Source: Salinigranum rubrum (GTDB lineage: Archaea > Halobacteriota > Halobacteria > Halobacteriales > Haloferacaceae). From it: a stretch of DNA of 64,000 nucleotides. The notes beneath the pieces are model-generated. The model was not told the origin of the DNA. It saw only the letters and a program-made list of their open reading frames with translations, and made no database searches. The translations under genes were made by a program, and so were the position numbers. The stretch's first letter is position 1; the number at the start of each line of letters is the position of its first letter. The stretch is from assembly GCF_002906575.1 (NCBI RefSeq), contig NZ_CP026309.1, positions 3,038,001 through 3,102,000 on the forward strand. Direction: 5' to 3'. Of this stretch, positions 1,934 to 58,637 are shown piece by piece.

Positions 1934-2015
1934 GCTGGCTACGCACGTCGACACGGCCCACGACGAAAAAACCGTACGGCCAGTCACGCCCGCACCGCCC
2001 CGTTCGCCGTCCAGC

Positions 2016-2041
2016 GTATATAATGAGCCAACAGCTGTTGG
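2016..2041 (+). promoter_or_regulatory. hyuA promoter: TATA box and perfect 14-bp palindrome
   Basis: A TATA-like GTATATAATG (2016-2025) is followed at once by the perfect palindrome CCAACAGCTGTTGG (2028-2041), about 50 nt before the hyuA ATG. The palindrome covers the expected transcription start. That is a typical repressor position, and the nearest candidate protein is the divergent HTH_10 regulator. Confidence 0.6.
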
Positions 2042-2090
2042 GGAAATCCTTACTCATCAATCCCCGCAAATCTACGTCGAACGATACCAG

Positions 2091-4153
2091 ATGACATACA
2101 ATCTCGGCGTCGACGTCGGCGGGACGTTCACCGACGTCATCGTCTTCGACGAGTCGACGCACGAACTCACGATCGACAAGGTCCTCTCGACGCCCGCGAA
2201 CCCCTCCGAGGGGGTGTTACACGGGATCGAGGAGGCGACGGCGAAGGCGGACACGTCCGTCTCGGAACTCGACCTCCTCTTTCACGGTACGACCGTCGTG
2301 ACGAACATGCTCTTGGAGGAGACGGGGTCGCGCGTCGGCCTTCTCACGACGGCCGGCCACGAGGACATCCTCCACCTGGCCCGCGCGTGGACGCCCGGGC
2401 CGCTGTACGGGTGGATGGGAATGGAGAAGCCGAACCCGCTCGCGGACCTCGTGGACACACGGGGAGTCGGCGGACGCATCGCGTCCCCGTCGGGCGAGGA
2501 GCAGGAACCGCTCGACGAGGAGGCGGTGCGGGCGGCCGTCCGCGACCTCGCGGACGCCGGCGTCGAATCGCTCACCGTCGCGCTGTTGAACTCGTATCTC
2601 AACCCGACCCACGAGGAGCGCGTCCGCGAAATCGTCGCCGACGAGGCCCCCGCGCTGCCGGTGTCTATCTCGTCGGAAATCGTCCCCGAGTACGGCGAGT
2701 ACGAACGGACGCTGACGACCGTCATCAACGACTACGCGCGGCCGACCGTCATCGCGTACCTCGACGACCTCGACGACTCCCTCGCCGACGCCGGGTCGAC
2801 GGCGACGATGAACGTCGTCCGCTCCGACGGCGGCCTCATGAGTTCTTCGGCCGCGAAGGAGCGCCCGGTCGAACTCGCACTGTCCGGTCCGAGCGGCGGG
2901 GTCGTCGGCGCGGCCACCATCGCCTCGAAGAAGGGCGTCCCCGACGTTCTCACCCTCGACATGGGCGGCACGTCGACCGACGTCTCGCTCGTCGAGGAGG
3001 GGTCGCCGGGGACGACCCGGAAGACGAAGGTCGGCTACCGGGAGTTCACCTCCCGCTCCATCGACGTCAACACGGTCGGCGCCGGCGGGGGCTCCATCGC
3101 CCGCGTCCAGTTGAACGGCTCGCTCCAGGTCGGCCCCGAGAGCGCCGGCGCCGACCCCGGCCCGGCGTGTTACGGACAGGGCGGCGAGGAACCGACCGTC
3201 ACGGACGCGAACGTCGTCCTCGGCCGGATTCCCTCGTCGGTTCAACTCGGCGGTCGGATGGAACTCGACCGCGAGGCCGCCCGCGACGCCGTCCAGACCG
3301 TCGCCGACGACCGGGGGACGAGCGTCGAAGAGGCCGCACAGGCCATCCTCGACATCGTCAACGAGAACATGCACGGGGCGCTGCGCGTGGTCTCGGTCGA
3401 GCGCGGCTACGACCCCGCGAGTTCGGCCTCGTCGCGTTCGGCGGTGCCGGCCCGATGCACGCGAACGCGCTCGCCGACGTGATGGGCGCGTATCCCCTCA
3501 TCGTCCCGCCCGGACCGGGCGTCATGTCGGCGTTCGGCTTTCTCACCTCCGACATCCAGAACGAGTTCGCCGAGACGTATCTCGAAACCGAGGCGGACGT
3601 CGACGGCGCGGCGGTCTACGAGGAGTTTCGGGCGCTCCGGGACGAGGCGACGGAGTGGCTCGTCTCCGAAGGCGTCGACGAGGCCGACCACTCGTTCGAG
3701 TACGTCGCCGACTGCCGGTACTTCCGGCAGGACATCCAGATGTCGATTCCGGTCTCCGTCGAGAACCTCCGTGGGGAGGCCGGAATCGCGGAGATCAAGG
3801 ACGACTTCGAGGCGCGCCACGACCGACAGTTCGGCTTCTCGCTCGACGCACCCCTCGAAATCGCGAACCTCCGCGTCATCGGGAAGGGGACGCTCCAGGG
3901 CGTCACCATCGAGGAACACGAACCGGGGGGTTCTGATCCCGGTGCCGCCGAAGTCGACACCAGCGAGGTGTACTTCGACGACTCGTACCACGAGACGCCC
4001 GTGTACGACCGCGACGCCCTCCGCGCCGGCAACGAGATTGCCGGTCCCGCCATCGTCACGGAGGACGACTCGACGGTCGTCGTCCAGCCCGGTCACGCCG
4101 CGCGAATCGACCGCTACGGCAACATCGAAATCACCAGAGGTGAGGGACAATGA
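2091..4153 (+). CDS. hyuA: Hydantoinase/oxoprolinase family protein, subunit A (one apparent frameshift)
   Basis: HyuA is the ATP-binding subunit of ATP-dependent hydantoinases, N-methylhydantoinases and 5-oxoprolinases. The start MTYNLGVDVGGTFTDVIVFDE is the family's N-terminal phosphate-binding motif, and the ATG at 2091 fits it. Other blocks are LLFHGTTVVTNMLLE, LSGPSGGVVGAA and TLDMGGTSTDVSLVE. The frame breaks near 3413-3416: the invariant RGYDPREFGLVAFGGAGPMH is reached only if a run of four C is read as five. Read through, the protein has 687 residues, normal for the family. The stop overlaps the hyuB ATG by four bases. Substrate specificity cannot be read from sequence, but the downstream amidase favours N-methylhydantoin or a similar ring. 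Confidence 0.9.
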
Positions 4154-6002
4154 GCGACACTCCGGAGTTCGTCGGCGAGCACGACATCGACCAGACCACC
4201 CTCGACATCATCGAGAGCACCCTCTCGAACACCCGCTACGAGATGGACCGGGTGGTCGAGACGACGGCCATCAGCCCGGTCATCCGCGAGCAGTCCGACC
4301 AGTTCCCGCTCATCGCCGACGCCGAGGGACGGATGGTCATGGGACAGTTCGGGTCGGCCATCGACACCATCCTCGACAACGCGTCGTTCGACCGCGCCGA
4401 CCTCGAAGACGGCGACGTCGTCGCCACGAACGACCCGTACATGTGCGCCGGCGCGGTGTCGCACACGCCGGACATGCTGCTGTTGCGACCCATCTTCTAC
4501 GACGACGACCTGGTGGGTTTCTCCAGCCAGTGGGGCAACCTGATGGACGTCGGCGGGAAGACGCCCGGGAGCATGCCCGTCCAGGCCCGAACCATCTTCG
4601 AGGAGGGGATGCGCCTCCCGCCGGTCAAACTGTACAAACGCGGGGAGATAGACACCGAACTGCTGGAGTCGTTCGCGCACAACACGCGCCTGCCCGAACA
4701 CGCCGAAGCCGACATCAAGGCGCTGGCCGCGGGGACGAAAGCCGCCGAGACGCGGGTCCAAGAGCTCTGCGATAGGTTCGGGAAGGAGACGTACCTGGAG
4801 GCGTGTGACGCCATCCTCGACCGCACCCGCGACGGGATGATCGACCTCATCCACGAGTTCGTCCCCGAGGGCGAGCGCTACACGTTCGAGGACTACGCCG
4901 ACGACGACGGCCTGGGCAACGGCCCCATCAAACTCCACCTCGAAATCTACCGGGAGGGCGACACGGTCTACCTCGACTGGACCGGCACCGACGAACAGGT
5001 CCCGGGCACGGTGAACTTCCTCTTGAACGAGAAGATGTTCAAGATGTTCACCGGGGTGTTCCTCATCATGGCGTTCGACCCCCTCCTCACGTTCAACGAC
5101 GGTTACTACGACCTCTTCGAGGTGACGCTCCCGGAGGGGTCGGTCCTGCAACCGGAGTTCCCGCCGCGCTCGGCAACCGGTTGCCGCTGATGGCCCGCCA
5201 GTTCGACGTGCTTCAGGCGACGTTCTCGAAGCTCATCGACGGCTTCTCGGTCGCCGGCAGCTACGGCACGTCGCCGAACCTGGTGTACGCGGGGACCGAC
5301 TCGGACGGCAACGACTTCCAGATGCTCGAAATCCTCTACGGGGGGATTCCGGCCCGACCCGGCGGCGACGGCCTCGACGGCCACTCGTGGTGGCCGCTCT
5401 TCCGGACCGTCCCCGCGGAGTACCAGGAGGCGTACTACCCCCTCTCTATCGACGAGTACAGCACCCGCGCGGACACCGGCGGCCCCGGCGAGTTCCGCGG
5501 CGGCCACGGCATCACCAAGGTGTACACGTTCGAGGAGGAGGGCGCGATCACGTTCCAGGACGACCGCGCGCACACGTACCCGTGGGGCGTCGACGGCGGG
5601 ACCTACGCGCAGACGAGCGAGAAACTGCTGATCCGCGCCGACGGGACCGAGGAGGAACTCCCCTCGAAGGTGGAGAACGTCCCCGTCGGGGCGGGCGACA
5701 AACTCGTCTTCAGCACGGCCGGCGGGGGCGGACTCGGCGACCCGCTCGACCGCGACCCCGACGTCGTCGCCAGCGAGGTCGAACGCGGGCTCGTCTCCGA
5801 ATCGGCGGCACACTCGGCGTACGGCGTCGTCCTCACCGACGACGGCGCGGTCGACGGAGCCGCGACCGACGAGCGCCGCGCGGAGCTCCGCGAGGAGCGC
5901 GACGAACCGGAGCAGTTCGACTACGGTCCCCTCCCCGACGAGGAGACCCTTCGAGAGCGGATCCGCGAGGAGCGCGAGACGTTCGAGAACCGGCAGCGCT
6001 GA
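4150..6002 (+). CDS. hyuB: Hydantoinase B/oxoprolinase family protein, subunit B (one apparent frameshift)
   Basis: HyuB is the second, ring-opening subunit that works with HyuA. The N-terminal part contains TLDIIESTLSNTRYEMDRVVETTAISPVIREQSD, NDPYMCAGAVSHTPDM and GNLMDVGGKTPGSM. The C-terminal part contains GTSPNLVYAGTDSDG, GGPGEFRGGHGITK and FSTAGGGGLGDPLDRD. The two parts are in different frames. The junction is near 5160-5164, where one C or G is missing just before the sequence that would read ALGNRLPLMARQFDVLQ. Read through, it is 617 residues, a normal length. It follows hyuA with an ATGA overlap, so the two are co-translated. As with hyuA, the break more likely reflects a sequencing error than a pseudogene. 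Confidence 0.9.
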
Positions 6003-46006: not shown

Positions 46007-46783
46007 ATGGACTGCGACCTGACAGGGAAGACTGCACTGGTCAGCGGATCGGGACGGGGAATGGGACGGGCGTCCGCCGAGGAACTGGCGCGAAACGGTG
46101 CGGACGTCGTCATCAACGACATCGACGAGGCGGTGGCCGAAGAGACCGCTGCGGATATTCGTGACCTCGGCGTCGACGCGATTGGCGTGCCCGCAGACGT
46201 CAGTGACGAGGCCGAAGTGGCCGCGATGGTCGAAACGGCGACGGACGAACTCGGTTCGGTCGACGTGCTCGTCAACAACGCGGGCGTGGGCGACGCGGGG
46301 CCGTTCCTCGACGAGGAGTATGACGGCACCTTCGAGCTGAACCTGGACGTCCACCTGTACGGGGCGCTGAACTGCACCCGCGAAGTGGTCGACGGGATGG
46401 TCGAGCAGGGGTACGGAAAGGTCATCAACTTCACCTCGATCCACACGAAGAACGGCGTCGGGATGTCGCCCGCGTACGACGTCGCGAAGTACAGCCTCCT
46501 GGGACTGACGAAGAGCCTCGCACTCGAACTCGGACGAGAGGGAATCCGCGTCAACGCGGTCGCCCCCGGGTGGGCCAACACGAGGCTGACCGAGGGGTTC
46601 AGCGACGCGGTGACCGAACAGATCCTCGACAACAACCCGCTGGGGCGGTTCGCCGAGCCCGAGGAGGTCGCCGACGTGGTCGCGTTCCTGGCCGCCCCGG
46701 CGAGCGACTACGTCAACGGTCACGAACTCCGCGTCGACGGCGGACAGGTCCCCATCGACAGCTGGCGACTGGACAGTCGATAG
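46007..46783 (+). CDS. SDR family NAD(P)-dependent oxidoreductase
   Basis: A 258-residue short-chain dehydrogenase. The cofactor loop is TALVSGSGRGMGRASAEELA, the NNAG motif is VDVLVNNAGVGDAGPF and the catalytic Ser-Tyr-Lys set is in NFTSIHTKNGVGMSPAYDVAKYS. Asp and acidic residues after the second strand (VVINDIDEA) favour NAD. C-terminal GFSDAVTEQILDNNPLGRF and YVNGHELRVDGGQVPI are typical of sugar or polyol dehydrogenases. I placed the start at ATG 46007 because a TATA-like element sits about 30 nt upstream. It is divergent from the CUT1 sugar transporter and probably oxidises the imported sugar to a lactone or keto-sugar. Confidence 0.92.
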   Translation: MDCDLTGKTALVSGSGRGMGRASAEELARNGADVVINDIDEAVAEETAADIRDLGVDAIGVPADVSDEAEVAAMVETATDELGSVDVLVNNAGVGDAGPFLDEEYDGTFELNLDVHLYGALNCTREVVDGMVEQGYGKVINFTSIHTKNGVGMSPAYDVAKYSLLGLTKSLALELGREGIRVNAVAPGWANTRLTEGFSDAVTEQILDNNPLGRFAEPEEVADVVAFLAAPASDYVNGHELRVDGGQVPIDSWRLDSR

Positions 46784-47018
46784 GCACTGGCGGTCACCGG
46801 TCAGTGAGTGACACCAATATTTATATACGATGTCAGACTGTGTCTACGTGGAGCGACACCGTATGAGCGACTCGGCCTCGACGGTGGGCGGAACGACGTA
46901 CACGTCCGCCGACGTCGAGAGTCCCCGAGCCTCACGACGGACCTAGAGCGATGACACGAACACACGAACTCGACAGTCGGACCGAGGAACCGGCACGTAC
47001 CCGTCCGCGGAGGCAACA

Positions 47019-48046
47019 ATGCAGGTAGCGTCACTAACGGACGTCGGTGAGATGCGAGTAGAGGAGCGAGAACAACCAGAGCCGGGACCGGACGAGGTCG
47101 TGGTGCGGGTCGGCGCGTGCGGCGTCTGCTCGACCGACCTCCACATGTACCACGGCTCGTTCGCCGTCGACTTCCCGGTCGTGCTCGGGCACGAGAGCGC
47201 CGGAACCGTCGCCGAAGTCGGTGCCGACGTCACCGGAGTGGAATCCGGCGACCGCGTTGCGGTGAACCCCACGGTGCCGTGTGGCGCCTGTTCGTACTGC
47301 AAGCGCGGCGAGACCAACCTCTGTGAGGACGCGACGTCCATCGGCGGCGCTGGTGACCGCATCCTCGACGGCTCGTTCGCCGAGTACGTCCGGGTGCCCG
47401 CGGCCAGCATCGAGACGGTCGGCGACTTGCCGTTCCGTCACGCGGCGCTCGCCGAACCGCTCGGCTGCTGTGTCCACGCTGCCGACCGGAGTGGCGTCGA
47501 GCAGGGCGACAGCGTCGCGCTGATCGGGGCCGGGCCGATCGGTCTCTTGATGTTGCAGACGCTCCGGAACCGCGGCGCGAGTCCCATCGTGGTGTCGGAA
47601 CTCAACCGCGAGCGTCGGGAACTCGCCGCCGAGATGGGTGCCGACGTGGTCGTCGACCCCGCCGAGGGGGACCCCGTCGAAACCATCCGGGAGGAGGTCG
47701 GCGAGGTCGACGTCGGCGTCGAAGTCGTCGGACTGATCCCGACGATCCAACAGGCGTACGACGTGACCGCCAAGGGGGGAACACCCTCATCGTGGGTGTC
47801 CCGGCACAGGGAGAGACGATGGAGATCACCCCCTTCGAGCTCTTCTACAACGACCTCGACATCAGGGGAACGTTCGCCCTCACGCAGGAGTCGTTCGAGC
47901 GGGCGGTGTCGCTGCTCCGGCGGGGCCGTATCGACGCCGAGTCGGTCGTGACGGAGGAGATCGGCCTCGGGGACATCCCGACCGCGTTCGAACGGATGGA
48001 GAACAACGAAGGACTGAAGAAAGTCGTCGTCCCGGGCGACCAGTAA
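47019..48046 (+). CDS. Zinc-dependent medium-chain alcohol/sugar dehydrogenase (one apparent frameshift)
   Basis: Read through one frameshift the protein has about 342 residues, normal for the family. Catalytic zinc ligands lie in GACGVCSTDLHMYHG and VVLGHESAGTVAEVG. The structural zinc site has four Cys in CGACSYCKRGETNLC. The nucleotide loop is VALIGAGPIGLLMLQTLRNRG. The frame changes near 47777-47782, where six G should be seven: TAKGG then continues NTLIVGVPAQGETMEITPFE. It resembles sorbitol/L-threonine/galactitol-type dehydrogenases. It follows the SDR gene by 235 bp and may act on the same sugar or polyol. Confidence 0.88.
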
Positions 48047-48402
48047 CGGTACCGGCCTCTCGTTCTCTCCGTCAGTTCCCGAGCCAACCACGAGAGCGAC
48101 AGCGACCGTGCTCCGCGTGCGTACGAGAGCGTCGGCGAGCGTCGATGGAGGTACTCGGGTCCGACGTTCGAGACCGCCTCCTCGTCGATCAACCACACCG
48201 GCGACGCCGTGCGCGCGAAGCCGGTGTCTGCCACCCGCGAGATGGCGAGATGGTCCGCAAGCACGCGGTCCCCACGCGTCTCGGCGGGTCCGATCTCAGT
48301 GAAATCCAGCGCCTGATACCGACCCGACGGACCGTCCGTTTCGAGACGACGGAGAACGTGACGAACCGCGTCCGTCCAGACCCCCGCTGATCGCTCCAGC
48401 AC
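48047..48402 (-). pseudogene. Possible protein-coding remnant of unknown family
   Basis: On the minus strand a frame beginning at ATG 48402 (LERSAGVWTDAVRHVLRRLE) stays strongly GC-biased at third codon positions for about 110 codons, including LDFTEIGPAETRGDRVLADH and PVWLIDEEAVSNVGPEYL. It then runs, without a sensible end, into the antisense of the alcohol dehydrogenase. It could be the 5' part of a decayed gene. I do not recognise the family. Confidence 0.3.
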
Positions 48403-48435
48403 TGCACCGGTCTCGACGAGAGAACCGCCGACGGT

Positions 48436-49472
48436 TCAGAGGTCCGAGAGAAGTCGGCCTCGGAACCGCTGGACGAAGGTGTACAGGAGGATGGCCCCGA
48501 ACAGGACGAGTCCGTTGATCGTCTGAACGATCTGCGGGTCGATGTTCAGCATGACGAGTCCGGCGGCGATCGTACTGAGAAGAAGGACCCCACCGAGCGC
48601 GTTGAAGACGTTCCCCCGCCCGCCGAACAGGCTCACCCCGCCGATCACAGCAGCGGTGAAGGCGGGGAACAGTTGGGAGGTTCCGAGCGTCGGCGTCGCC
48701 CCGCCGTTGAACCCCGTCAGGAGCAGGCCGCCCGTGGCCGCCAGCATCCCCGAAATCACGAAGACGGCGATGACCACGCGATCCGTATCGATGCCGGCCT
48801 CGGCGGCCGACTCCTCGTCGCCACCGACCGCGTACACCGCTCGACCGAACCGGGTCTTCATCAGGACGAACCACACCGCGACGAAGAGGCCGAGCATGAA
48901 GACGACGGCGATGGGGACCGACTGCGGGAGGAGCCCTCCGAGCGAGACCTCTCCACCGCCGAGCCACAGGTAGCTCTCCGGCAGTTCGTAGACCGACCGT
49001 GTCGACAGGACCAGTATCCCCCCTCGAAGACGATGAGGGCCGACAGCGTCTGGAGGAACGGGTTCACGTCGAACTTGGCGATGAAGAAGCCGTTCAGGAA
49101 CCCGATCGATCCCCCGACCAGGAGGACGACCAGTATTCCGACGATTCCCGGTACCCCACTGAACCAACTCGTGAGGAACAGCGCGGTGAACATCGACGAG
49201 AACCCCGCAATCGACCCGACCGAGAGGTCGAAGTTCCCACTGATGAGACAGATGGCCTCCGCGAGCGTGATCGCTCCGAGTCCGGCACTCGTGTACAGCA
49301 GGAACTCGATGTTTCGGTACTGGGTGAAGATCTCGGGGAGGAGAAGAGAGAAGAAGACAAACGCCACTAACAGGATGGGCCAGATGAGGTTGTCCAGCGC
49401 GAACAACATCATCCGCGTTCGGTCACCCTGCAGGTCGGAAATCGTCGAACTCACGTTGGATAGTGTGCTCAT
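48436..49472 (-). CDS. Ribose-type (CUT2) ABC transporter permease (one apparent frameshift)
   Basis: Read through, this is a 345-residue RbsC-like permease with multiple helices, for example NLIWPILLVAFVFFSLLLPE and QSVPIAVVFMLGLFVAVWFV. The family-typical AITLAEAICLISGNFDLSVGSIAG (LxxGGIDLSVG-like) and RAVYAVGGDEESAAEAGIDTDR are present, with FTAAVIGGVSLFGGRGN near the end. The frame breaks at about 49018-49023, where six C (G in the gene) should be seven: IVFEGG then continues ILVLSTRSVYELPESYLW. It ends the three-gene CUT2 transporter (ATPase, binding protein, permease), all on the minus strand. Confidence 0.9.
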
Positions 49473-49493
49473 CGTCCCGTGGCGTGCGGTGGT

Positions 49494-50738
49494 TCAGTTC
49501 GACCCCTCGATCTCACGGTAGACGTTACCGTAGAGGTAGGAGGCGTCGGCGTTCTCCTGGGTAATCATTGCGTGTTGACACTTCAGCCACGGCCACCAGG
49601 CGGTGTCTTCGGCCTCGTACTCGGTCATCTCGGCGGGGCCCCAGAACTGCTCGGACCACGGTTCGATTCCCTCGACCGTCTTGTTCTCGATCGAGAGGTT
49701 CTCGCCGGGCGTGACCGTGTCGCCGACCTGCGGGAGCGCGCTCTCCCCGTTCTCGAGGTAGTCCCACATCAGTTCGAGCGTCAGCGGTGCGTACATGTGG
49801 AGGGGCTGGTCGACCGCGAAGTCGTAGTAGCCGCTCCCGATCCGCTGGTTGAGTTCGGGACCACCGTCGATTCCGAAGGCCATGACGTGGTCCTCGCTGT
49901 CCTTCTTGTGGTACATGTCCATCTGCTGGAGCGCGGTCAGGGCGCCCATGCCGCTGCCGACGTTGTTGGAGTATATCGCGTCGACGTCAGGGTTGGCCTG
50001 GAGTGCGCTCTGGGTCTGTGGGGCGGAGTCCTCGGGCGTCCCGTCGCTCTCGATGCGGTTGACGACCTCGACGCTGTCCGGGATGTTCTCGGTGAAGCCG
50101 TACAGGCGCGCCTGACTCGTCGTCGATTCGAAGTTGAAGACGCTGGTGATGACCTTCGGGTCCTCGATGCCCTGTTCCTCGATCATCTGGGTGAATCGCT
50201 CGCCGGCGACCTGCCCACCGGCGTACTGACCGAAGAGGGCGCCCATGACGACGTCCTCCGACAGCGTCGCCGTGTCGAAGTTCATCACCGGAATGTCCTC
50301 CTCGGTCGCCTTCTCGACGATCTGTCTCGACGCCTTGGCGTCGAAGGGGTTCAGCAGGATGCCGTCGAGACCCTGATTGATCGCGTTGATCGCGTCCTGT
50401 GTCTGTTTCGAGGCGTCGAACTCGGCGTCCAAGATGACGATTTCGACGTCGTCGCGGTCTCTGGTGTACCACTTCGCGGCCTGTCCCTGCACGAACAGAC
50501 CGGCCTGCCCCATCGACTTCATCGAGACGGCGAACCGCTGTGTCCCGCTGTCCGAGCTACCACTGTCGCCGACCGTGGTCCCCTCGCTCGACCCGCCGTC
50601 GCCGCCGCTGCTACCGCCGCCACCACCACTGCTGCCGCCACCACTCGACTGGTTGCCGCTCTGTCCACCCGTACAGCCGGCGAGGCCGGCGATACCCGCT
50701 GCTCCGATCCCTTTGAGGAGGTTGCGTCGACTCGTCAT
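49494..50738 (-). CDS. Ribose-type ABC transporter substrate-binding lipoprotein
   Basis: A 414-residue binding protein of the RbsB/periplasmic-binding-protein-like I type. The N-terminus MTSRRNLLKGIGAAGIAGLAGC has a Tat twin-arginine motif and lipobox, then a Gly/Ser linker (about residues 25-60). The binding domain includes RFAVSMKSMGQAGLFVQGQAAKW, QTQDAINAINQGLDGILLNPFD, EDIPVMNFDTATLSEDVVMG, VDAIYSNNVGSGMGALTALQQM and GGPELNQRIGSGYYDFAVDQ, a classic sugar-binding pattern. It lies 22 bp upstream of the permease gene. The ligand is likely a sugar, sugar acid or polyol used by the downstream catabolic genes. Confidence 0.93.
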   Translation of the reverse strand: MTSRRNLLKGIGAAGIAGLAGCTGGQSGNQSSGGGSSGGGGGSSGGDGGSSEGTTVGDSGSSDSGTQRFAVSMKSMGQAGLFVQGQAAKWYTRDRDDVEIVILDAEFDASKQTQDAINAINQGLDGILLNPFDAKASRQIVEKATEEDIPVMNFDTATLSEDVVMGALFGQYAGGQVAGERFTQMIEEQGIEDPKVITSVFNFESTTSQARLYGFTENIPDSVEVVNRIESDGTPEDSAPQTQSALQANPDVDAIYSNNVGSGMGALTALQQMDMYHKKDSEDHVMAFGIDGGPELNQRIGSGYYDFAVDQPLHMYAPLTLELMWDYLENGESALPQVGDTVTPGENLSIENKTVEGIEPWSEQFWGPAEMTEYEAEDTAWWPWLKCQHAMITQENADASYLYGNVYREIEGSN

Positions 50739-50980
50739 GGTCTTTGATTACGTTCCAGGCACACCTGCCTGCTGCTCGTACTTAAAATTTTCCACACGGC
50801 GGAGGACTGAATCGAGTTCCCCGTCCGACCGGTGAGTTCCCGATAGCCGTCAGAGTGAATCGTCCGGTGAGGTGAGTCGAGATGTGATGCCGGGGAACGA
50901 GGGGCCGGCGGCGAGCGTGACACCGGTCAGAACACGCGGTTCGCCCCGTCTCTCGACAGACGTGACCCCTCGGGTGGGCC

Positions 50981-51811
50981 TCAGGCCGTGGACGAACTCG
51001 ACGAGGTGGCGTCTGACTGGCGACCGAGCGGTTCGTCGTCTCCGTCCTCGTGTGCGGACCGCCCGGAGACCATCATGCTGACGACATCGTCGCGCGTGAC
51101 GCTCTCGGCGTCGACAACGTCGACGACCCGTCCCTGAAACAGCACGGCGACGCGGTCGGTCATCGACAGCACCTCTTCGAGGTTGTGATCGATCAGGATG
51201 ACCGAGTGACCGCTGGCGCGCAACTGCTTGACGAGTTCTTCGACGTGTTCGACGGCCGCCTTCGAGAGCGCGGACGTCGGTTCGTCGAGGAGGACGATGT
51301 CGGGGTCGGTGACGAGGGCACGTCCGATGGCGACGGCCTGTCGCTCCCCGCCCGAGAGGTATTCGACCGGCGTGTCGGGGTCGACGTGGATGTTGAGGTG
51401 CTCGCTCAGGATGCGCTCGGCCTCTTGCTTCATGTACTCCTTGTCGACGACCGAGACGACCCCTCCCAGTTTCTTGACCGGCATCCGGCCGAGGAACAGG
51501 TTCTCCGCGACGGAGAGTTCGTCGACGAGCGCGAGGTCCTGGTACACGGTCCCGATTCCGAGCGTCCGGGCGTGTTTCGGGCCGTCGATGGTGACCGGCT
51601 CACCGTTGAACCGAATCTCCCCTTCGTCGGGCTGGTGGATACCGACGAGCGTCTTGATGAACGTCGACTTACCGGCACCGTTGTCGCCGACGAGCCCGAG
51701 GACTTCGTTGTCTTCGAGCGTGAGCGAGACGTCCGAGAGGGCTTCCACGGTGCCAAAGCGCTTCTTGACGTGTTCTACCTCGATTCGGGGATTGGAAGGT
51801 TCGGTGGTCAT
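50981..51811 (-). CDS. Ribose-type ABC transporter ATP-binding protein (single-domain, FrcA-like)
   Basis: A 276-residue ATPase. Walker A is VGDNGAGKST, signature YLSGGERQAVAIGRALV, Walker B DIVLLDEPTSALS and H-loop VILIDHNLEEVLSMTDRV. The text after Walker A (FIKTLVGIHQPDEGEIRFNGEPV) is typical of RbsA-family NBDs. Unlike the two-domain RbsA it has a single domain, as in FrcA-type systems, so two copies must serve one transporter. It lies 242 bp upstream of the binding-protein gene. The ATG at 51811 was chosen because it directly precedes EPSNPRIEVEHVKKRFG. Confidence 0.92.
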   Translation of the reverse strand: MTTEPSNPRIEVEHVKKRFGTVEALSDVSLTLEDNEVLGLVGDNGAGKSTFIKTLVGIHQPDEGEIRFNGEPVTIDGPKHARTLGIGTVYQDLALVDELSVAENLFLGRMPVKKLGGVVSVVDKEYMKQEAERILSEHLNIHVDPDTPVEYLSGGERQAVAIGRALVTDPDIVLLDEPTSALSKAAVEHVEELVKQLRASGHSVILIDHNLEEVLSMTDRVAVLFQGRVVDVVDAESVTRDDVVSMMVSGRSAHEDGDDEPLGRQSDATSSSSSTA

Positions 51812-51948
51812 GGGCGGTGGATACTGTGTGGGTCGATGTGACACCGTCTCTGCTATCGACGTAAATAAATAACGATCGTGTAGGATTCCGGTGCGCCTGG
51901 GATCTGGTCGATTCGACTCGCTTCGCGGCTCCGATAGAGCGCGACGCG

Positions 51949-53262
51949 TCACTCGAGGGGCATCGCGAGTTCGCCGTCCTCGTCGAACACCCACGGTTGG
52001 TCCTCGTGGACGCGGATGTCGTCCCGGTCGGCGAGTTCCTCGGCGACCGGTTCCGACACCCACAGCTCTTCGGGTGTCAGCGTGTTCTCGATGCGGGCGA
52101 TTCGGAGTTCACCCGCGTCCGCGACACCCGTCATCGACGCCGAGAGGACGAACGCCGTCGCGTCGCTCGGGACGACGAACGGGAGCTTCGCCCGGCTCGG
52201 TTCGCCGCTCGTCACGATGTTGACGTACGTGTCCTCGAAGTCGACGACAGCGGCGAGGTCCCGGTGGACGAGGTCGGCGAGGCCCATGCCGAGGGCGTTC
52301 CCGTGGGACGCCGGCGTCAGCGACCGGACGTAGACCCGAGTCAGCGACGGCGCGTCGAGTTCGACCTGTCCGTGAAACCGGACGCGGCCGATGACGTTGG
52401 TGTCGAGTCCGGTCCCGCTGATCTCCTTACCCATCTCGTCGACGACGAGCAGGTCAAGGTCGTCGACCGGGAGTTCGGGGAACAACTCCCTGGAACGCTC
52501 CAGCAGCTCCGGCTCCACGTCGAGGAGGTCCGCGGCGGGGACACCCTGGACGTCGGCCGCCCGCTCCTCGGCGTTCTCGATGATACCCACGCCGCCGACG
52601 ATGGGCGTCTCCTCGACGAGGATGCCGGCCCACTCCGGGATGACGTCGGCGAACCCCCGGTCGAGTGCGGCGTTGTGCATGTTATCGGCGCCGCGTTGTT
52701 TGCCCAGTCCGACGACGGCCATCTTGCAGAGACCGCTCTCGACGTCGCCCTCGAAGTCCGTGTGGAGTTTGATCCGGTTGACGAGCAGGACGGCGTCGGC
52801 AGCGAGCGCGTCTTCGGCCGCGTACACGGGGCGACCGACCGAGTCGCTGCCCACCTGCTCGACGGCGAGCGACGACCTGATCTCACAGCCGAGTCGGTCC
52901 GGCGTGATTCCGAGCGTCGCGAGCGTCTCTCGTTGTCCCTCGGGGGTCGCTCCCCCGTGGCTGCCCATCGCGGGGAAGACGAACGGTTCGAGCCCGCGCG
53001 ACTGGAGTTCCGAGACGATGTCTTCGAGGACCGCCGGGAGGTCCTCGATTCCTCTGCTCCCCGCCGTGATGCCGACTGTGCTCCCCGGTTCGAGTTCGTC
53101 GAGTTGCGGGATGTCGTCTACCGCAGCGGTCGTGGCCGCCGTGACGTCCGAGACGGTGGGGTGGTCGCGGACGCGACTGACACGGTACGCGCGGGGCAGG
53201 TCGGACAGTTCGGCGTCGTTGGTCGATTCCAGCCGGTCCCGACCGGGAAACTCGAACTCCAT
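51949..53262 (-). CDS. LarA-like nickel-dependent racemase/epimerase family protein
   Basis: A 437-residue protein of the lactate racemase (LarA/DUF2088) superfamily, which interconverts C2 epimers of 2-hydroxyacids using a nickel-pincer nucleotide. Visible are VGITAGSRGI, PFVFPAMGSHGGATPEGQ (SHG loop), VLLVNRIKLHTDFEGDVESG (Lys/His/Asp-rich metal-cofactor region), GLCKMAVVGLGKQRGADNMH, and DLDLLVVDEMGKEISGTGLD. The ATG at 53262 starts MEFEFPGRDRLEST. LarB, LarC and LarE, needed to build the cofactor, are not in the window. It is divergent from the four-carbon acid-sugar kinase gene with only 36 bp between them, suggesting a shared promoter region and pathway. Confidence 0.85.
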   Translation of the reverse strand: MEFEFPGRDRLESTNDAELSDLPRAYRVSRVRDHPTVSDVTAATTAAVDDIPQLDELEPGSTVGITAGSRGIEDLPAVLEDIVSELQSRGLEPFVFPAMGSHGGATPEGQRETLATLGITPDRLGCEIRSSLAVEQVGSDSVGRPVYAAEDALAADAVLLVNRIKLHTDFEGDVESGLCKMAVVGLGKQRGADNMHNAALDRGFADVIPEWAGILVEETPIVGGVGIIENAEERAADVQGVPAADLLDVEPELLERSRELFPELPVDDLDLLVVDEMGKEISGTGLDTNVIGRVRFHGQVELDAPSLTRVYVRSLTPASHGNALGMGLADLVHRDLAAVVDFEDTYVNIVTSGEPSRAKLPFVVPSDATAFVLSASMTGVADAGELRIARIENTLTPEELWVSEPVAEELADRDDIRVHEDQPWVFDEDGELAMPLE

Positions 53263-53298
53263 GGATACGCGACCCAATGCGGATGAGCCGTTTATGTT

Positions 53299-54321
53299 TT
53301 GTCCCTCACGGGTCGAGGCGGGGAGTATGCGAACGTTTCGTTACGACGTCCCGCGGTCGTCGTCGCGCCGGCGTTTCCGGACAACGGCCGAGTGACCGCG
53401 TGTGGGCACCACCTCGTCGACGGGCAGTTGGTGACCGAATCGCCGCCCGGAGCGGACGAGGAACGACCGCCGACGCACGACTCGCTCCCCGCGCTCTTCG
53501 CAGCGAGCGACCACCCCGTCGAGCGAATCGGCGTCCAGACCGTCGCGCGCGGCGAGGCTGCTGTCCGCGAGTCCTTCGAGTCGTCGTGCTCGACGGACGG
53601 TCCGGTCGTCGTCACCTGCGACGCCGTGACGGATCGCCACCTCACGACACTCGCCGCGGCAGCGGACGACTTCTCCGGGCGCTGTCTGTCCGTCGGGAGC
53701 GGCGGCCTCGCACGTCACATCGCCGTCCCCGGCACGTCCTCCGGAACGAGGTTCACCGCCGACGAGAGCCGGACGGTGGTGGGCGTGTCGGGGAGCGTCG
53801 CACCGGAGACGCTCGAACAGGTCGGAGCGGTGTCGGAGGAACTGCGGCAACACCTCTGCCTCGAAACGGCCGTCACCGACCCGACCGCTGCAGGGGGCGA
53901 CCTGTCGTCCCGGGGAAGTGGGGTCGTCGACAGACGCGGGGGCGTGCACCTCCACGGTGCCGACGCACGCAGCGACGTCGACCGGGCGATGACTGCCGGC
54001 GAGCGGGCGGGCGTCGACGGACCGACGGTTCGGCGTCGCGTGACGAACGCGCTCGCCGCCGGAGCCGCCGAGGTAGTCCGAAGTGGTCGGGTATCGAACC
54101 TCGTTCTCGCCGGTGGGTCGACGGCTCGGGCGGTCCTCGACGAACTCGACGCGACGGCGCTCCGTATGGCCGGCGAAGCGGTCGCACCGGGGATACCGCT
54201 CTCGACGGTCGAGGGGGGCGTCGCGGACGGGGTGACGGCCGTCACGAAAGCGGGCGGGTTCGGAGCCGAGCAAGCAATAATTAAGTCCCTCGCTCGTCTC
54301 GGTCTTCCCGATGAGCGATAG
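53299..54321 (+). CDS. Four-carbon acid sugar kinase (DUF1537), N-terminally truncated
   Basis: This 340-residue frame is clearly homologous to DUF1537 kinases (D-threonate, D-erythronate and L-threonate kinases). PAVVVAPAFPDNGRVTACGHHLVDG and the C-terminal nucleotide-binding part (GVSGSVAPETLEQV, VSNLVLAGGSTARAVLDEL, GIPLSTVEGGVADGVTAVT then KAGGFGAEQAI) are present. The usual first 100 or so residues, including the ADDLTGANDTG-type substrate motif and the STLRG stretch, are absent. The divergent LarA-like gene starts 37 bp upstream, so no room remains for them. The start used is a TTG at 53299 and is doubtful. Activity is uncertain. It overlaps pdxA by 11 bp. Confidence 0.72.
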   Translation: MSLTGRGGEYANVSLRRPAVVVAPAFPDNGRVTACGHHLVDGQLVTESPPGADEERPPTHDSLPALFAASDHPVERIGVQTVARGEAAVRESFESSCSTDGPVVVTCDAVTDRHLTTLAAAADDFSGRCLSVGSGGLARHIAVPGTSSGTRFTADESRTVVGVSGSVAPETLEQVGAVSEELRQHLCLETAVTDPTAAGGDLSSRGSGVVDRRGGVHLHGADARSDVDRAMTAGERAGVDGPTVRRRVTNALAAGAAEVVRSGRVSNLVLAGGSTARAVLDELDATALRMAGEAVAPGIPLSTVEGGVADGVTAVTKAGGFGAEQAIIKSLARLGLPDER

Positions 54322-55309
54322 ACTGCCTACTGTCGGCGTTACCATGGGTGATCCGGCTGGAATCGGGAGCGAAGTCATCGTCAAATCGTATCCGACGCTG
54401 GTCGAGTCCGCGGCCGTCGTCGTCGTCGGCGACGCGTCCGTGCTGGCAGATGCAGCAGACCGGTTCGCCCCGGGGTTGACGGTTCGCCCTGTCGACTCAC
54501 CGACCGAGGCGGACGCCGACCCCGAGGGGCTTCCGGTCGTCGACCTCGACAACGTGTCCACCCATCGGTACGGCGAACTCTCCGAAGCGAACGGCGCGGC
54601 GAGCCTCGAATACGTCCAGCGGGCGATCGAACTCGCACAGGCCGGAGAGATCGACGCGATAACCACCGCACCCATCAACAAGCAGGCGACCCGGATGGCC
54701 GGCAGCGAGTACGCGGGTCACACGGGGATGCTCGCGGACTACACCGATACCGACGACTACTCGATGATGCTGATCGAGGACGACCTGACGGTGACACACG
54801 TCAGTACGCACGTCCCGCTACGAGAGGCCTGCTCGCGACTCACCGTCGACGACGTCGCGTCGACGATCACCGTCACTGACGAAGCGTTGCGCGACCTCGA
54901 CATCGACGAGCCATCCATCGCCGTCGCGGGGCTGAATCCACACGCGAGCGACGGTGGACTCCTCGGCGACGAGGAGGCCGACATCATCGAACCGGCGGTA
55001 GCGCAAGTCGCCGAGAGGGGTGTCGACGTGACCGGCCCCCACTCGCCGGACACGGTCTACGTTCGAGCCGCGGCGGGGGAGTTCGACTGCGTCGTCTCGA
55101 TGTATCACGACCAGGGTCACATCCCCATCAAGATGCTCGGCTTCACCGGGAGCGACGACGCGGTGAGCGGCGTCAACGTCACCATCGGACTCCCGATTAT
55201 TCGGACGAGCGTCGACCACGGCACGGCGTTCGACATCGCCGGAGAGGGGGTCGCCTCCGAACAGAGCATGATCGACGCGGTGGCGACGGCCGTCGAACTC
55301 GCCCGATAA
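54311..55309 (+). CDS. pdxA: 4-phospho-D-threonate/4-hydroxythreonine-4-phosphate dehydrogenase (PdxA/PdxA2)
   Basis: A 332-residue metal-dependent dehydrogenase. Landmarks are VGVTMGDPAGIGSEVIVKS, DAITTAPINKQATRMAGSEY, HTGMLADYTDTDDYSMML, YHDQGHIPIKMLGFTGSDDAV and GLPIIRTSVDHGTAFDIAGEG; the His/Asp set binds the metal and substrate phosphate. PdxA proper acts in pyridoxal phosphate synthesis, but paralogues next to DUF1537 kinases (PdxA2) oxidise and decarboxylate 4-phospho-D-threonate or 4-phospho-D-erythronate to dihydroxyacetone phosphate and CO2. The 11-bp overlap with the kinase gene makes the PdxA2 role more likely. The ATG at 54311 lies within the kinase gene's 3' end. Confidence 0.92.
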   Translation: MSDRLPTVGVTMGDPAGIGSEVIVKSYPTLVESAAVVVVGDASVLADAADRFAPGLTVRPVDSPTEADADPEGLPVVDLDNVSTHRYGELSEANGAASLEYVQRAIELAQAGEIDAITTAPINKQATRMAGSEYAGHTGMLADYTDTDDYSMMLIEDDLTVTHVSTHVPLREACSRLTVDDVASTITVTDEALRDLDIDEPSIAVAGLNPHASDGGLLGDEEADIIEPAVAQVAERGVDVTGPHSPDTVYVRAAAGEFDCVVSMYHDQGHIPIKMLGFTGSDDAVSGVNVTIGLPIIRTSVDHGTAFDIAGEGVASEQSMIDAVATAVELAR

Positions 55310-55378
55310 GTACGGTTCCCCCCTCGGTTCAGTCCCCTCGTCTCAGTCACACACAGCCTCGTAACCGAGAGGCCGAGA

Positions 55379-56077
55379 CTACACCAGCGCGAAGGCGCGA
55401 ACCGAACACCCGCCCGTCCCCTGGACGTTGAGTGGTGGGAAGAAGAAGTCCGCGCGCCGACTGTCCGCCCCGTCGAGCACCTGATCGAGGTTCCGCAACT
55501 CCTCGATGGGAATCACGTCGTTCTCCAGCAGTGGGAGATGCGAGTCGGCCGGATGGACGTCGGTCGACGGGCCGTGCGCTGGCACCTCGTCGTACCAGCC
55601 GCCGACGCTCGCTCCCTCCGTCCCCACCGCCTTCGGGTCGAGCGAGACGACGTACTCCGCGGCTTCGCCGGTCAGATAGGGGAACTCGAAGAGGTACTCC
55701 GGTGTCTGACCGTAGTACTCGTCCCAGCCGGTGTGGAGCATGACGACGTCACCGGGCTGGATCTCCGACTCGTACGCCTCGATGTCGGCCCGGGTGATCG
55801 GCTCCTCGGGCTCTTTCGGCGTCAGGTCGATGACGACACCCTCGCCCATGAACGCCCCGATGGAGAAGTCGTCCAGCGTTTTTCCCTCGGGGATGAAGTG
55901 CGCCGGGGCGTCGATGTGAGTCGCCGTGTGACTCCGCATCTCCAGGCGTTCCATCGTGAAGCCGTCACGTGCGGCCAGCGACGTCCGTTCGACGTCGACC
56001 GGTGGGAAACTCGGCCACACGGGGATGTCGTCGTCGATCGGGTTGGACAGCTCTATGACCTCCTTCGAATCGAGCAT
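55379..56077 (-). CDS. Cyclase family metal-dependent hydrolase (kynurenine formamidase-like fold)
   Basis: A 232-residue member of the cyclase/arylformamidase family. The hallmark zinc-binding motif HxxTHxDxPxH is present as SHTATHIDAPAHFIPEGK. EVIELSNPIDDDIPVWP, VVIDLTPKEPEEPITRADIE, GDVVMLHTGWDEYYG and VGTEGASVGGWYDEVPAHG match the fold. Catalytic members hydrolyse amides or lactones. In this cluster it could open a sugar lactone made by the dehydrogenases; that is inference. I chose the ATG at 56077 because a TATA-like ACTTATTTTT sits about 25-30 nt upstream and the preceding in-frame residues are not family-like. Confidence 0.88.
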   Translation of the reverse strand: MLDSKEVIELSNPIDDDIPVWPSFPPVDVERTSLAARDGFTMERLEMRSHTATHIDAPAHFIPEGKTLDDFSIGAFMGEGVVIDLTPKEPEEPITRADIEAYESEIQPGDVVMLHTGWDEYYGQTPEYLFEFPYLTGEAAEYVVSLDPKAVGTEGASVGGWYDEVPAHGPSTDVHPADSHLPLLENDVIPIEELRNLDQVLDGADSRRADFFFPPLNVQGTGGCSVRAFALV

Positions 56078-56115
56078 GTCAGGTCCGACAGGCCACGGAA
56101 AAATAAGTATTGCGC

Positions 56116-56879
56116 TCACCGGAACACGTTTTCGACGAGCTCCGTCTCCTCGAACAGGTCACGGTAGTCGTCGGGCACGCGGCCGTCGGTGATGAGGAGG
56201 TCGATGTCGTCGACCGTTCCGAACCGACGGAAGCTCTGTTCGCCGAACTTCTCGGTGATGGTGACGACGATGGTTCGCGTCGCGTGTTCGACGGCGAGCT
56301 GTTTGATCTTCGCCTCGGACTCGTTGGGTGCGGACAACGCGCCGTCGGGCTCGATACCGTTCACACCGATGAACGCGAGGTCGAACGACGAGTTTCGGAT
56401 GTAGTCTTCGGTCGTCGGACCGACCAGTGCTTTGGTCTCGTTTCGGTACTCCCCACCCGTCAGTTTGACCGTGCCGTCCGCCTTCGAGAGCTCCGGCAGT
56501 AAGAGGGGGGCGTTCGTGACGATGATGGTCGAGCTGTCGTCCGGGACCTCCTTTGCGACCTGCATCGTGGTCGTGCCGGCGTCGAAGTAGACGACCTGCC
56601 CCTCGTGAATCTCCTGGACGGCTCGCTCGGCGATGGCCTGTTTCCGGTCCAGGTTCTGGACGAGGCGTCGGTCGAACGCCCGTTCGACCCCGACGTTCGT
56701 CACGGGGGCGGCACCGCCGTGGGTCCGCTCGATGAGGTTCCGGTCGGCGAGGTCGCTGAGGTCGCGTCTGATTGTCGACGGCGAGACTTCGAGGCGGGTG
56801 GCCAACTCCTCGACCGAGAGGCCCCCTGCTTCGTGACCAACTCCGTGATGGACCGACGCCGCTGTTCGGGGGTGCTCAC
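56116..56879 (-). CDS. DeoR/GlpR family transcriptional regulator (one apparent frameshift)
   Basis: Read through one frameshift it has about 254 residues, the normal DeoR length. The N-terminal HTH is GLSVEELATRLEVSPSTIRRD then LSDLADRNLIERTHGGAAP. The C-terminal sugar-phosphate sensor carries VVYFDAGTTTMQVAKEVPDD, TGGEYRNETKALVGPTTED and AFIGVNGIEPDGALSAPNES. The frame breaks at about 56822-56826, where five C (G in the gene) should be six: ITELVTKQGG then continues LSVEELATRL. The likely start is the GTG at 56879 (STPEQRRRSITELV); the ATG at 56918 is possible if the transcript is leaderless. It probably represses the catabolic genes around it in the absence of a phosphorylated intermediate. 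Confidence 0.9.
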
Positions 56880-56912
56880 GGGACCACACCCCCGGGCCCG
56901 TCCGTTCGCCGA

Positions 56913-56933
56913 ATCCATGCGATTGGCATGGAT
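56913..56933. promoter_or_regulatory. Inverted repeat ATCCATGC-N5-GCATGGAT (DeoR operator candidate)
   Basis: Perfect 8-bp arms (56913-56920 and 56926-56933) separated by GATTG lie between the DeoR gene and a TATA-like GCTAAATA (about 56951-56958, minus strand). The repeat covers the expected transcription start of the regulator, as expected for autorepression. Confidence 0.55.
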
Positions 56934-56954
56934 GGATGTTGCTCCGACCGGTAT

Positions 56955-57794
56955 TTAGCTTTCCTGCCCGTCGACGATAGCCGCCTGCTCCGGTTCGTCC
57001 CACACCTCTTCGACGGAGGCGCCCTCGTGGACGATTTTCATGAGCGCTTCGACCGTCCGGGACGGGTCCTCGGACTTCCAGATGGTTCGACCGATCATCA
57101 GCCCGCGGGCGCCGGAGTCCATCGCCCCCTCGACGGATTCGAGCATCCCGCGCGTGGTGCCCGTCGCGGGCCCCCCGAGAATCATCACCGGAACCGGCGC
57201 GTTCTCGACGAGTGGCTCGAACGACTCGACGCTGCCGGTGTACGGTGCCTTGAGGATGTCCGCCCCGAACTCCCATCCCATGCGCATCGCATCGGCCACG
57301 AAGTCGGGGTCCGTCTCCAACTGGTCCGGAATGCGCTCGCCCCACATGACGGGCTCGACCACCAGTGGGATTCCGGTGTCGCGCAGGTCCTCGGCGAGTT
57401 CCCCGATGTACTCGACGTTGCGACGGAAGGTTTCGTTGTTGTCACGGCCGAACACCAAGACCGTCTTGACGCCGACGGGGTCGAGTTCCTGGAGGAATTC
57501 GGCGTCGAACGCCGGCGTCCAGAGGTCCTGGCCGTGGTCCCGGCCGGGACTGGTCGACCACGTCACGACGTCCGCGGTGAGGACGACGTCGACGTCGGCC
57601 TCCGAAAGCCGTTCTTGGTAGTGGCGAGCGAAATGCGGGCCGACGAGTACCGCGTCGGGCTCGCCGCGCAGTACCTCGTCGAGCGTGTCCTCAGGAGTCT
57701 CGAATCCCTCGGGAGACCCGAGGCTGAGGCCGTGATCGAGCGCTACAACGACTGCGTTCCCCGATGGGGTATCTAGGAGCTGAGGTTCTGTCAT
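56955..57794 (-). CDS. DhnA/LsrF-type class I aldolase family protein
   Basis: A 279-residue TIM-barrel aldolase. NAVVVALDHGLSLGSPEGF (start of the barrel), ADVDVVLTADVVTWSTSPGR, the Schiff-base lysine in GADILKAPYTGSVESF (Lys about 182), VPVMILGGPATGT and GARGLMIGRTIW are characteristic of DhnA-type class I fructose-bisphosphate/LsrF aldolases. The ATG at 57794 follows a TATA-like AATTAAAT about 30 nt upstream, fitting leaderless transcription. It is upstream of the DeoR gene on the same strand. It may cleave or form a sugar-phosphate or 2-keto sugar from the pathway. The family also includes 2-amino-3,7-dideoxy-heptulosonate synthase, so the substrate is open. Confidence 0.9.
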   Translation of the reverse strand: MTEPQLLDTPSGNAVVVALDHGLSLGSPEGFETPEDTLDEVLRGEPDAVLVGPHFARHYQERLSEADVDVVLTADVVTWSTSPGRDHGQDLWTPAFDAEFLQELDPVGVKTVLVFGRDNNETFRRNVEYIGELAEDLRDTGIPLVVEPVMWGERIPDQLETDPDFVADAMRMGWEFGADILKAPYTGSVESFEPLVENAPVPVMILGGPATGTTRGMLESVEGAMDSGARGLMIGRTIWKSEDPSRTVEALMKIVHEGASVEEVWDEPEQAAIVDGQES

Positions 57795-57854
57795 CGACTT
57801 CGATTGTGCTGAACGGAGCCACCTATTTAATTATTCTCCTCGCGGTCGTGCGGC

Positions 57855-58637
57855 TCAGATCACCCGCCAGCCGCCGTCGACCATCAGTATCTCGCCGGTC
57901 ACGTAGTCGGCATCGTCGCTGGCGAGGTAGAGGGCCGCACCCGCAACGTCCTCCGGCGTGCCCGCGCGCCCCGCGGGGACCGGTTTGATGAGTTCGTCCT
58001 TCGCGGCTGCTTCCGGCGCCTCCTCCGACCACCCGTCGATGAACTCCGTGGCGATCTGACCGGGTCCGACTGCGTTCACTCTGATGTCGTGGTCGGCCAG
58101 TTCGAGCGCTGCACCCCGCGTGATCATCTTGACGGCGGCTTTCGTGGAGTCGTACTGGATCTGGTCACGCTGGGCGACGAACGAACTGATCGAAGCCGTG
58201 TTGACGATCGCTCCCTCGACCCCTCGGTCGATCATGTCTTCCGCCGCTGCTTGGCAGCCGAAGAACACGCCCTTCGCGTTGACCTCGTGGATCCTCTCGA
58301 ACTCGTCCTCGCTGACTTCGAGGAGGCTTCCACCGATGAACAACCCGGCGTTGTTCACCATCACGTCGACGCCGCCGTACTCTCGCGCGCGTTCGACCGC
58401 CGCACGAATCTCGTCGGCGTTCGAGACGTCCGTCTGCACGAATTCAGCCGTCCCGCCCTGGTCCTGGATGGCCTCGTGTGTCGGCGTGTCTCCGACTTTG
58501 GGCTGGGACTCGATGTCCGCGTTCAGGACGGTCGCCCCCGCCTCGCCGAACCGGAGTGCGATTTCTCGCCCGATTCCAGAGCTGGCACCTGTGACTACGA
58601 CGGTGTCTCCGTCGAAGTCGTCGCTGTAGTCAGGCAT
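57855..58637 (-). CDS. SDR family NAD(P)-dependent oxidoreductase
   Basis: A 260-residue short-chain dehydrogenase. The cofactor loop is TVVVTGASSGIGREIALRF, NNAG is in VDVMVNNAGLFIGGSLLE and the catalytic set lies in ASISSFVAQRDQIQYDSTKAA. The C-terminal DADYVTGEILMVDGGWRVI is typical of sugar/polyol dehydrogenases. The ATG at 58637 has a TATA-like TCTTTATTCC about 25-33 nt upstream, fitting a leaderless transcript. It is the first gene after the AT-rich transposon graveyard and precedes the aldolase gene on the same strand. It plausibly supplies a sugar-acid precursor. Confidence 0.92.
   Translation of the reverse strand: MPDYSDDFDGDTVVVTGASSGIGREIALRFGEAGATVLNADIESQPKVGDTPTHEAIQDQGGTAEFVQTDVSNADEIRAAVERAREYGGVDVMVNNAGLFIGGSLLEVSEDEFERIHEVNAKGVFFGCQAAAEDMIDRGVEGAIVNTASISSFVAQRDQIQYDSTKAAVKMITRGAALELADHDIRVNAVGPGQIATEFIDGWSEEAPEAAAKDELIKPVPAGRAGTPEDVAGAALYLASDDADYVTGEILMVDGGWRVI

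Follow-up and report, generated by a model that had tools for sequence, protein, structure and literature searches.

The haloarchaeon Salinigranum rubrum carries a LarA-type gene beside a DUF1537 kinase gene and a pdxA gene, and we propose, with a probability of roughly 0.7, that it encodes a nickel-pincer nucleotide (NPN)-dependent C2-epimerase that interconverts D-erythronate and D-threonate ahead of the kinase and PdxA2. The gene belongs to a cluster at positions 46007-58637 of the window, by which we mean the whole 64,000-nucleotide stretch analysed (C1:3038001-3102000 of the 4.97-Mb genome). D-Erythronate and D-threonate are C2 epimers that share the configuration at C3; because known DUF1537 kinases act on these two acids and LarA homologues invert C2 of 2-hydroxyacids, a tetronate 2-epimerase is the role that we favour. 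The first-pass annotation of this DNA had put forward the same partnership of a LarA-type enzyme with a DUF1537 kinase and PdxA2, and linkage across haloarchaea and Bacillota supports it.

Linkage of the LarA-type gene to kinase and pdxA in haloarchaea

We surveyed 293 genomes of the order and took up to 20 kb of sequence surrounding the kinase genes; PdxA accompanied the kinase at 42 of these loci. The surveyed genomes are related, so that the counts are not independent, and about seven families are involved. The DUF1537 domain was found in 54/293 genomes, PdxA in 50/293, and LarA homologues of the window protein's own family (NCBIfam 'NPN isomerase group 22', hereafter group 22) in 121/293, with kinase and PdxA co-occurring in 48 genomes, or roughly one haloarchaeon in six. 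Group 22 was present in 47/50 genomes with PdxA vs. 74/243 others (p=9e-18). Haloferax volcanii is among the species with matches to the larA, larE, kinase, and pdxA families. At the level of loci, a LarA gene lay within 500 bp in 23/42 kinase-PdxA loci and within 10 kb in 28/42, where by our own estimate, at a density of some two LarA genes in 3.8 Mb, chance would give well under one within 500 bp. The association is far beyond chance, and the LarA-kinase-PdxA gene order, whose conservation had been set beforehand as a test able to refute the proposal, is conserved.

Tight same-strand kinase-pdxA-larA operons occur at 15 loci, and in some, L097 and L080 among them, the genes overlap; a GntP-type permease recurs beside linked operons (L059, L061, L066, L068, L080, L095, and L097). 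The linked LarAs also group in the tree: 28/30 LarAs labelled as linked fall in one 31-member clade (Shimodaira-Hasegawa-like approximate likelihood ratio test, SH-aLRT, 99), and for two of the three other members of this clade, kinase and PdxA lie no more than about 30 kb away on the same contig.

Two further kinds of kinase locus were seen in the survey. At L044, L083, L081, and L091, kinase and PdxA stand beside what appear to be two UxaA-type (altronate dehydratase-like) genes and fumarylacetoacetase-like genes, a different sugar-acid context. At L047-L056 the DUF1537 kinase is of a second haloarchaeal kind, accompanied by neither PdxA nor LarA and in some cases by a class II aldolase-like gene; the L048 kinase matched the 3-oxo-isoapionate kinase OiaK best (499 bits, cut-off 700), and these kinases possibly belong to a D-apionate-type pathway.

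Family, fold, and residues of the LarA-like protein

The window protein scored 487.8 bits against group 22 (NF052515, curated cut-off 400). Pfam gave no match for it at E 0.001, while Bacillota members of the group exceed the Pfam Lar_N cut-off, and PDB sequence and profile searches with group-22 alignments retrieved no LarA; because both routes gave no LarA, membership was tested by fold, and only this comparison retrieved LarA. An AlphaFold2 model (pLDDT 94.5, pTM 0.90) matched 12 LarA-superfamily entries at Z 18.4-21.1, the next best entry reaching 6.7, and the predicted structure has the two-domain LarA fold. The matches comprise lactate racemase, malate racemase, single-histidine LarAs, and the Thermotoga protein 4nar (Z 18.4 to the model), which is probably the Thermotoga gluconate epimerase GntE.

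Residues were mapped from a local profile alignment with canonical LarA (E 6e-5), with the C-terminal domain outside the alignment; a global profile alignment of group 22 with canonical LarA gave no usable match, and the pocket mapping ends at T168/D169. The catalytic His108 and His174 of LarA, its cofactor tether Lys184, and its nickel ligand His200 align to H102, H167, K180, and H196, respectively, all four invariant in 109 homologues. In the cofactor-contact region around Asp72/Arg75, R70 is invariant and the likely Asp position reads A or V, the alignment being gapped there. The second catalytic histidine is followed by T-D in group 22, and R357 is fixed in both kinase-PdxA-linked clades, while the remaining haloarchaeal clades mostly have G or K at this position. 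Judged from model and alignment together, the protein is a LarA-type NPN-isomerase homologue that keeps the predicted catalytic residues.

The genome also holds the means to make the cofactor. A search for larB, larC, and larE elsewhere in the genome, as the first-pass annotation had suggested, found one of each, all above curated cut-offs. The LarA-type genes of this genome are three group-22 copies; it contained no Lar_N match and no LarA besides these three.

The trio outside haloarchaea

A scan of GTDB genomes brought up the LarA-kinase-PdxA trio in Oceanobacillus, Alkalihalobacillus, Neobacillus, Bacillus, Heyndrickxia coagulans 36D1, Fredinandcohnia, and Brevibacillus, and in one Prolixibacteraceae genome (Bacteroidota). 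At four loci (L128, L132, L135, and L144) it clusters with larB and larE, and at three of the four with larC (larC1/C2); all four also carry a NicO-like gene (a weak family match) and GntP or TRAP transporter genes. In Heyndrickxia coagulans and in Alkalihalobacillus macyae a single group-22 protein is the only LarA, so that in the former the trio contains the sole LarA-type gene of the genome; group-22 copies number two in Neobacillus and three in Bacillus, and canonical LarA is absent from both. Because these genomes have no other LarA, their larB, larC, and larE most likely serve group 22. Most linked Bacillota LarAs form a clade separate from the haloarchaeal linked clade, and the trio link is therefore either ancient or of multiple origin.

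Likely substrates of kinase and PdxA

The DUF1537 enzymes DtnK and DenK phosphorylate D-threonate and D-erythronate (PMC10971088), and PdxA2 is known from organic-acid catabolism (PMC9997740). D-threonate kinase (NF047819) was the best-scoring family for the intact operon kinases (202-355 bits vs. 87-194 for 3-oxo-tetronate kinase); the window kinase scored 105 bits against it, the intact paralogue in the same genome 239, and Bacillota kinases up to 355. The window PdxA reached 368 bits against TIGR00557 (cut-off 290). No PdxJ was found in the genome, and because it is absent PdxA would not serve pyridoxal phosphate synthesis by the PdxJ route. Both kinase and PdxA score under the equivalog cut-offs for the C4 pathway, and for this reason we speak of a proposed C4 substrate.

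Gene content of the cluster

The gene families named by the first-pass annotation were all found at 46007-58637 by profile searches and sequence comparison; its list stands as to content, with the corrections that the kinase is truncated and that three reading frames are broken. The features are as follows (SDR and MDR, short- and medium-chain dehydrogenase/reductase).

46007-46783, + strand: SDR family dehydrogenase 1 (family match), with a presumed pathway role
47019-48046, + strand: MDR, zinc alcohol/polyol dehydrogenase; frame broken at the G6 run 47774-47779
48436-49472, - strand: CUT2 ABC permease; frame broken at the homopolymer 49018-49023
49494-50738, - strand: CUT2 (RbsB-type) substrate-binding lipoprotein (family match)
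50981-51811, - strand: CUT2 ATPase (family match)
51949-53262, - strand: group-22 LarA homologue, 437 aa; proposed NPN-dependent tetronate C2-epimerase (NF052515, fold, residues)
53299-54321, + strand: DUF1537 acid-sugar kinase, D-threonate-kinase-like, lacking the first ~100 residues (profile match)
54311-55309, + strand: PdxA family, PdxA2-like putative oxidative decarboxylase (TIGR00557)
55379-56077, - strand: cyclase-family hydrolase (Pfam PF04199); putative lactonase
56116-56880 (start approximate), - strand: DeoR/GlpR-type regulator; frame broken at G5 near 56824
56955-57794, - strand: DhnA-type class I aldolase (family match)
57855-58637, - strand: SDR family dehydrogenase 2, the recurrent SDR (family match)

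The closest related cluster is L092, with homologues of the window genes at 84% (SDR2), 83% (DhnA), 77% (DeoR), 84% (PdxA), and 66% (kinase). SDR2 homologues (60-84%) occur near kinase-PdxA in L043, L074, L089, L092, L094, and L100, and homologues of the cyclase-family protein (66%) in L074 and L098; SDR1 and the MDR showed no clear recurrence near related kinase-PdxA loci. For a 16-base sequence that precedes the kinase (CGAACGTTTCGTTACG), the window had no second copy above chance level, and thus no sign of a shared operator.

The window kinase covers only profile positions 102-413 of 422, and its similarity to the L092 kinase starts sharply near 53347. Using the N-termini of related kinases, we found this part in the relatives and nowhere in the window; complete SBD_N and NBD_C domains with an N-terminal DDxTG motif are present in the intact paralogue and the relatives and not in the window kinase. 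The local kinase had earlier been taken as a working step of the pathway, a reading that the missing residues do not support, and because of the truncation the kinase step in this strain would need the intact paralogue at C1:160098. The same genome has a second set at C1:155-161 kb, made up of PdxA, SDR, and CUT2 genes and a complete kinase gene, and the further group-22 LarA copies are at C1:129 kb and C1:3184581.

The MDR, permease, and DeoR genes are each split by a one-base shift at G5-G6 runs (47774, 49018, and ~56824). Because two more genes at 1.9-6.0 kb of the window (1932-5999) look similarly broken, these shifts are likely homopolymer sequencing errors, and we dropped them as a sign of cluster decay. 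The loss of ~100 kinase codons is not of the homopolymer-error type.

Other group-22 clades

Elsewhere (L100:4462-8597, L110:6910-11170, L079, L086, and L087) a group-22 LarA lies near a pair that by sequence appearance is LutC/LutB-like (lactate utilisation), which suggests another hydroxyacid substrate for other members of the group. A third haloarchaeal clade, containing L114, L045, and the copy at C1:3184581, has mandelate-racemase-like genes and IclR regulators nearby where looked at, and mostly N, not D, after the second catalytic H-T.

Proposed pathway and alternative explanations

We infer the substrate, the order and direction of the steps, and the chemistry as follows. A tetronate would be imported by a GntP, TRAP, or CUT2 transporter, or formed in the cell; the LarA-type enzyme would epimerise it at C2 by proton-coupled hydride transfer on the nickel cofactor; the D-threonate-kinase-like DUF1537 enzyme would phosphorylate it at position 4; and PdxA2 would oxidise C3 with NAD and release CO2, giving dihydroxyacetone phosphate. 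The epimerase would thus let one kinase and one PdxA2 consume both epimers. The first-pass annotation had placed oxidation of a sugar to a lactone and its opening to the acid ahead of these steps; this part is speculative, resting on neighbours that are often absent. A GntP sugar-acid permease is encoded in many of the sister operons, with a permease as the sole such neighbour in many cases, which suggests uptake of the acid as such. The DhnA aldolase, also counted as a pathway member, does not fit into the scheme; dihydroxyacetone phosphate may be its substrate.

Several observations weigh against this assignment. There is no LarA within 10 kb in 14/42 kinase-PdxA loci, as expected if some pathways need one epimer only, and also if LarA is optional for another reason. 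All kinases fall below the D-threonate-kinase equivalog cut-off (450 bits), and the window PdxA scores 306.9 bits against D-threonate-4-phosphate dehydrogenase (NF002891, cut-off 583). The window kinase, to judge from its missing part, is probably inactive. Finally, group 22 appears not to be of one function, other clades adjoining dehydratase-like or LutB/LutC-like genes.

The most probable of the alternatives is compatible with the epimerase proposal: the window cluster would be a decayed, functionless copy, and the working system the paralogous set at C1:129-161 kb. We regard this as possible, if somewhat doubtful. The truncated kinase, the three genes out of frame, and the paralogous PdxA, kinase, SDR, and CUT2 genes are in its favour; however, LarA, PdxA, DhnA, SDR2, and the cyclase-family gene are intact, the frameshifts look like sequencing errors, and decay here would leave the function of the family untouched.

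The epimerase might instead act after the kinase, interconverting 4-phospho-D-erythronate and 4-phospho-D-threonate. The same gene linkage fits this order, and R357 could bind the phosphate, but the characterised LarA homologues all use free acids (PMC7583248; PMC11770544) and the transporters beside the operons suggest that free sugar acids enter, which makes it unlikely. Equally improbable to us is that the substrate is another 2-hydroxyacid of the same catabolism (a C5/C6 aldonate or a lactate-like acid), the kinase-PdxA link being indirect. The neighbours of the unlinked clades (mandelate-racemase-superfamily-like or LutB/LutC-like) and the naming of GntP after gluconate speak for it; against it, the overlapping kinase-pdxA-larA operons indicate a common substrate, as does a linkage that spans whole clades in both archaea and bacteria, and the smallest clusters contain no C5/C6-acid enzyme. 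That kinase and PdxA serve vitamin B6 metabolism by 4-hydroxythreonine repair, with LarA unrelated, is very improbable: DUF1537 enzymes can phosphorylate 4-hydroxythreonine (PMC7954711), but the genome lacks PdxJ, and PdxA and kinase occur together in so few haloarchaea and with catabolic neighbours and transporters.

Relation to known systems

Zhang et al. (2016) reportedly described the bacterial D-threonate/D-erythronate pathway, with the DUF1537 kinases DtnK/DenK and PdxA2. The clusters studied here resemble it in having a D-threonate-kinase-like kinase followed by a PdxA-type enzyme, with sugar-acid transporters nearby, and differ in the added LarA-type epimerase, in their haloarchaeal and several Bacillota versions, and in scores under the equivalog cut-offs.

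GntE is an NPN-dependent D-gluconate 2-epimerase of LarAH groups 19/20 (PMC7583248). It shares with group 22 the fold and the proposed NPN-dependent C2 epimerisation of a sugar acid, whereas group 22 is too diverged for PDB profile detection, has T-D in place of E-V after the second histidine, and has partners that point to C4 acids. Several LarA homologues epimerise 4-deoxy-threonate/erythronate as a minor side activity (LarA1 kcat/KM about 80 per M per s; PMC11770544), so that lactate racemase LarA and its broad homologues offer a precedent for the chemistry on C4 2,3-dihydroxyacids; for group 22, in contrast, tetronate epimerisation is proposed as the main job. The single-histidine LarA subfamily (PMC12611868) is close in fold (Z 20.6-20.9) and in its carbohydrate gene context, but has Asn for His174 where group 22 keeps both histidines.

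The nickel epimerase, proposed as new by the first-pass annotation, would therefore be new for this pathway and not as a kind of reaction, since NPN-dependent D-gluconate 2-epimerases and 4-deoxy-threonate/erythronate epimerisation are already published (PMC7583248; PMC11770544). LarA-type sugar-acid epimerases such as GntE and the DUF1537/PdxA2 pathway are each known, and it is their combination that seems to be new. No report linking LarA to DUF1537, to PdxA, or to the epimerisation of tetronates turned up in the open-access literature searched; the association may be listed in Zhang et al. (2016) or in the supplementary gene-context table of PMC7583248, both outside that search.

On balance, we are inclined to regard the linked group-22 LarAs as the first nickel-dependent tetronate 2-epimerases, forming part of an undescribed three-enzyme D-erythronate/D-threonate route common to haloarchaea, Bacillota, and Bacteroidota, and as the only evident client of the nickel-pincer cofactor genes in some Bacillota. 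The proposal gives a testable substrate to a widespread LarA group that had no function in the literature searched, and would extend a known sugar-acid pathway by a nickel enzyme. It also suggests a use for the nickel-pincer cofactor in such organisms as Heyndrickxia coagulans, whose larB/C/E genes could be mistaken for evidence of lactate racemisation.

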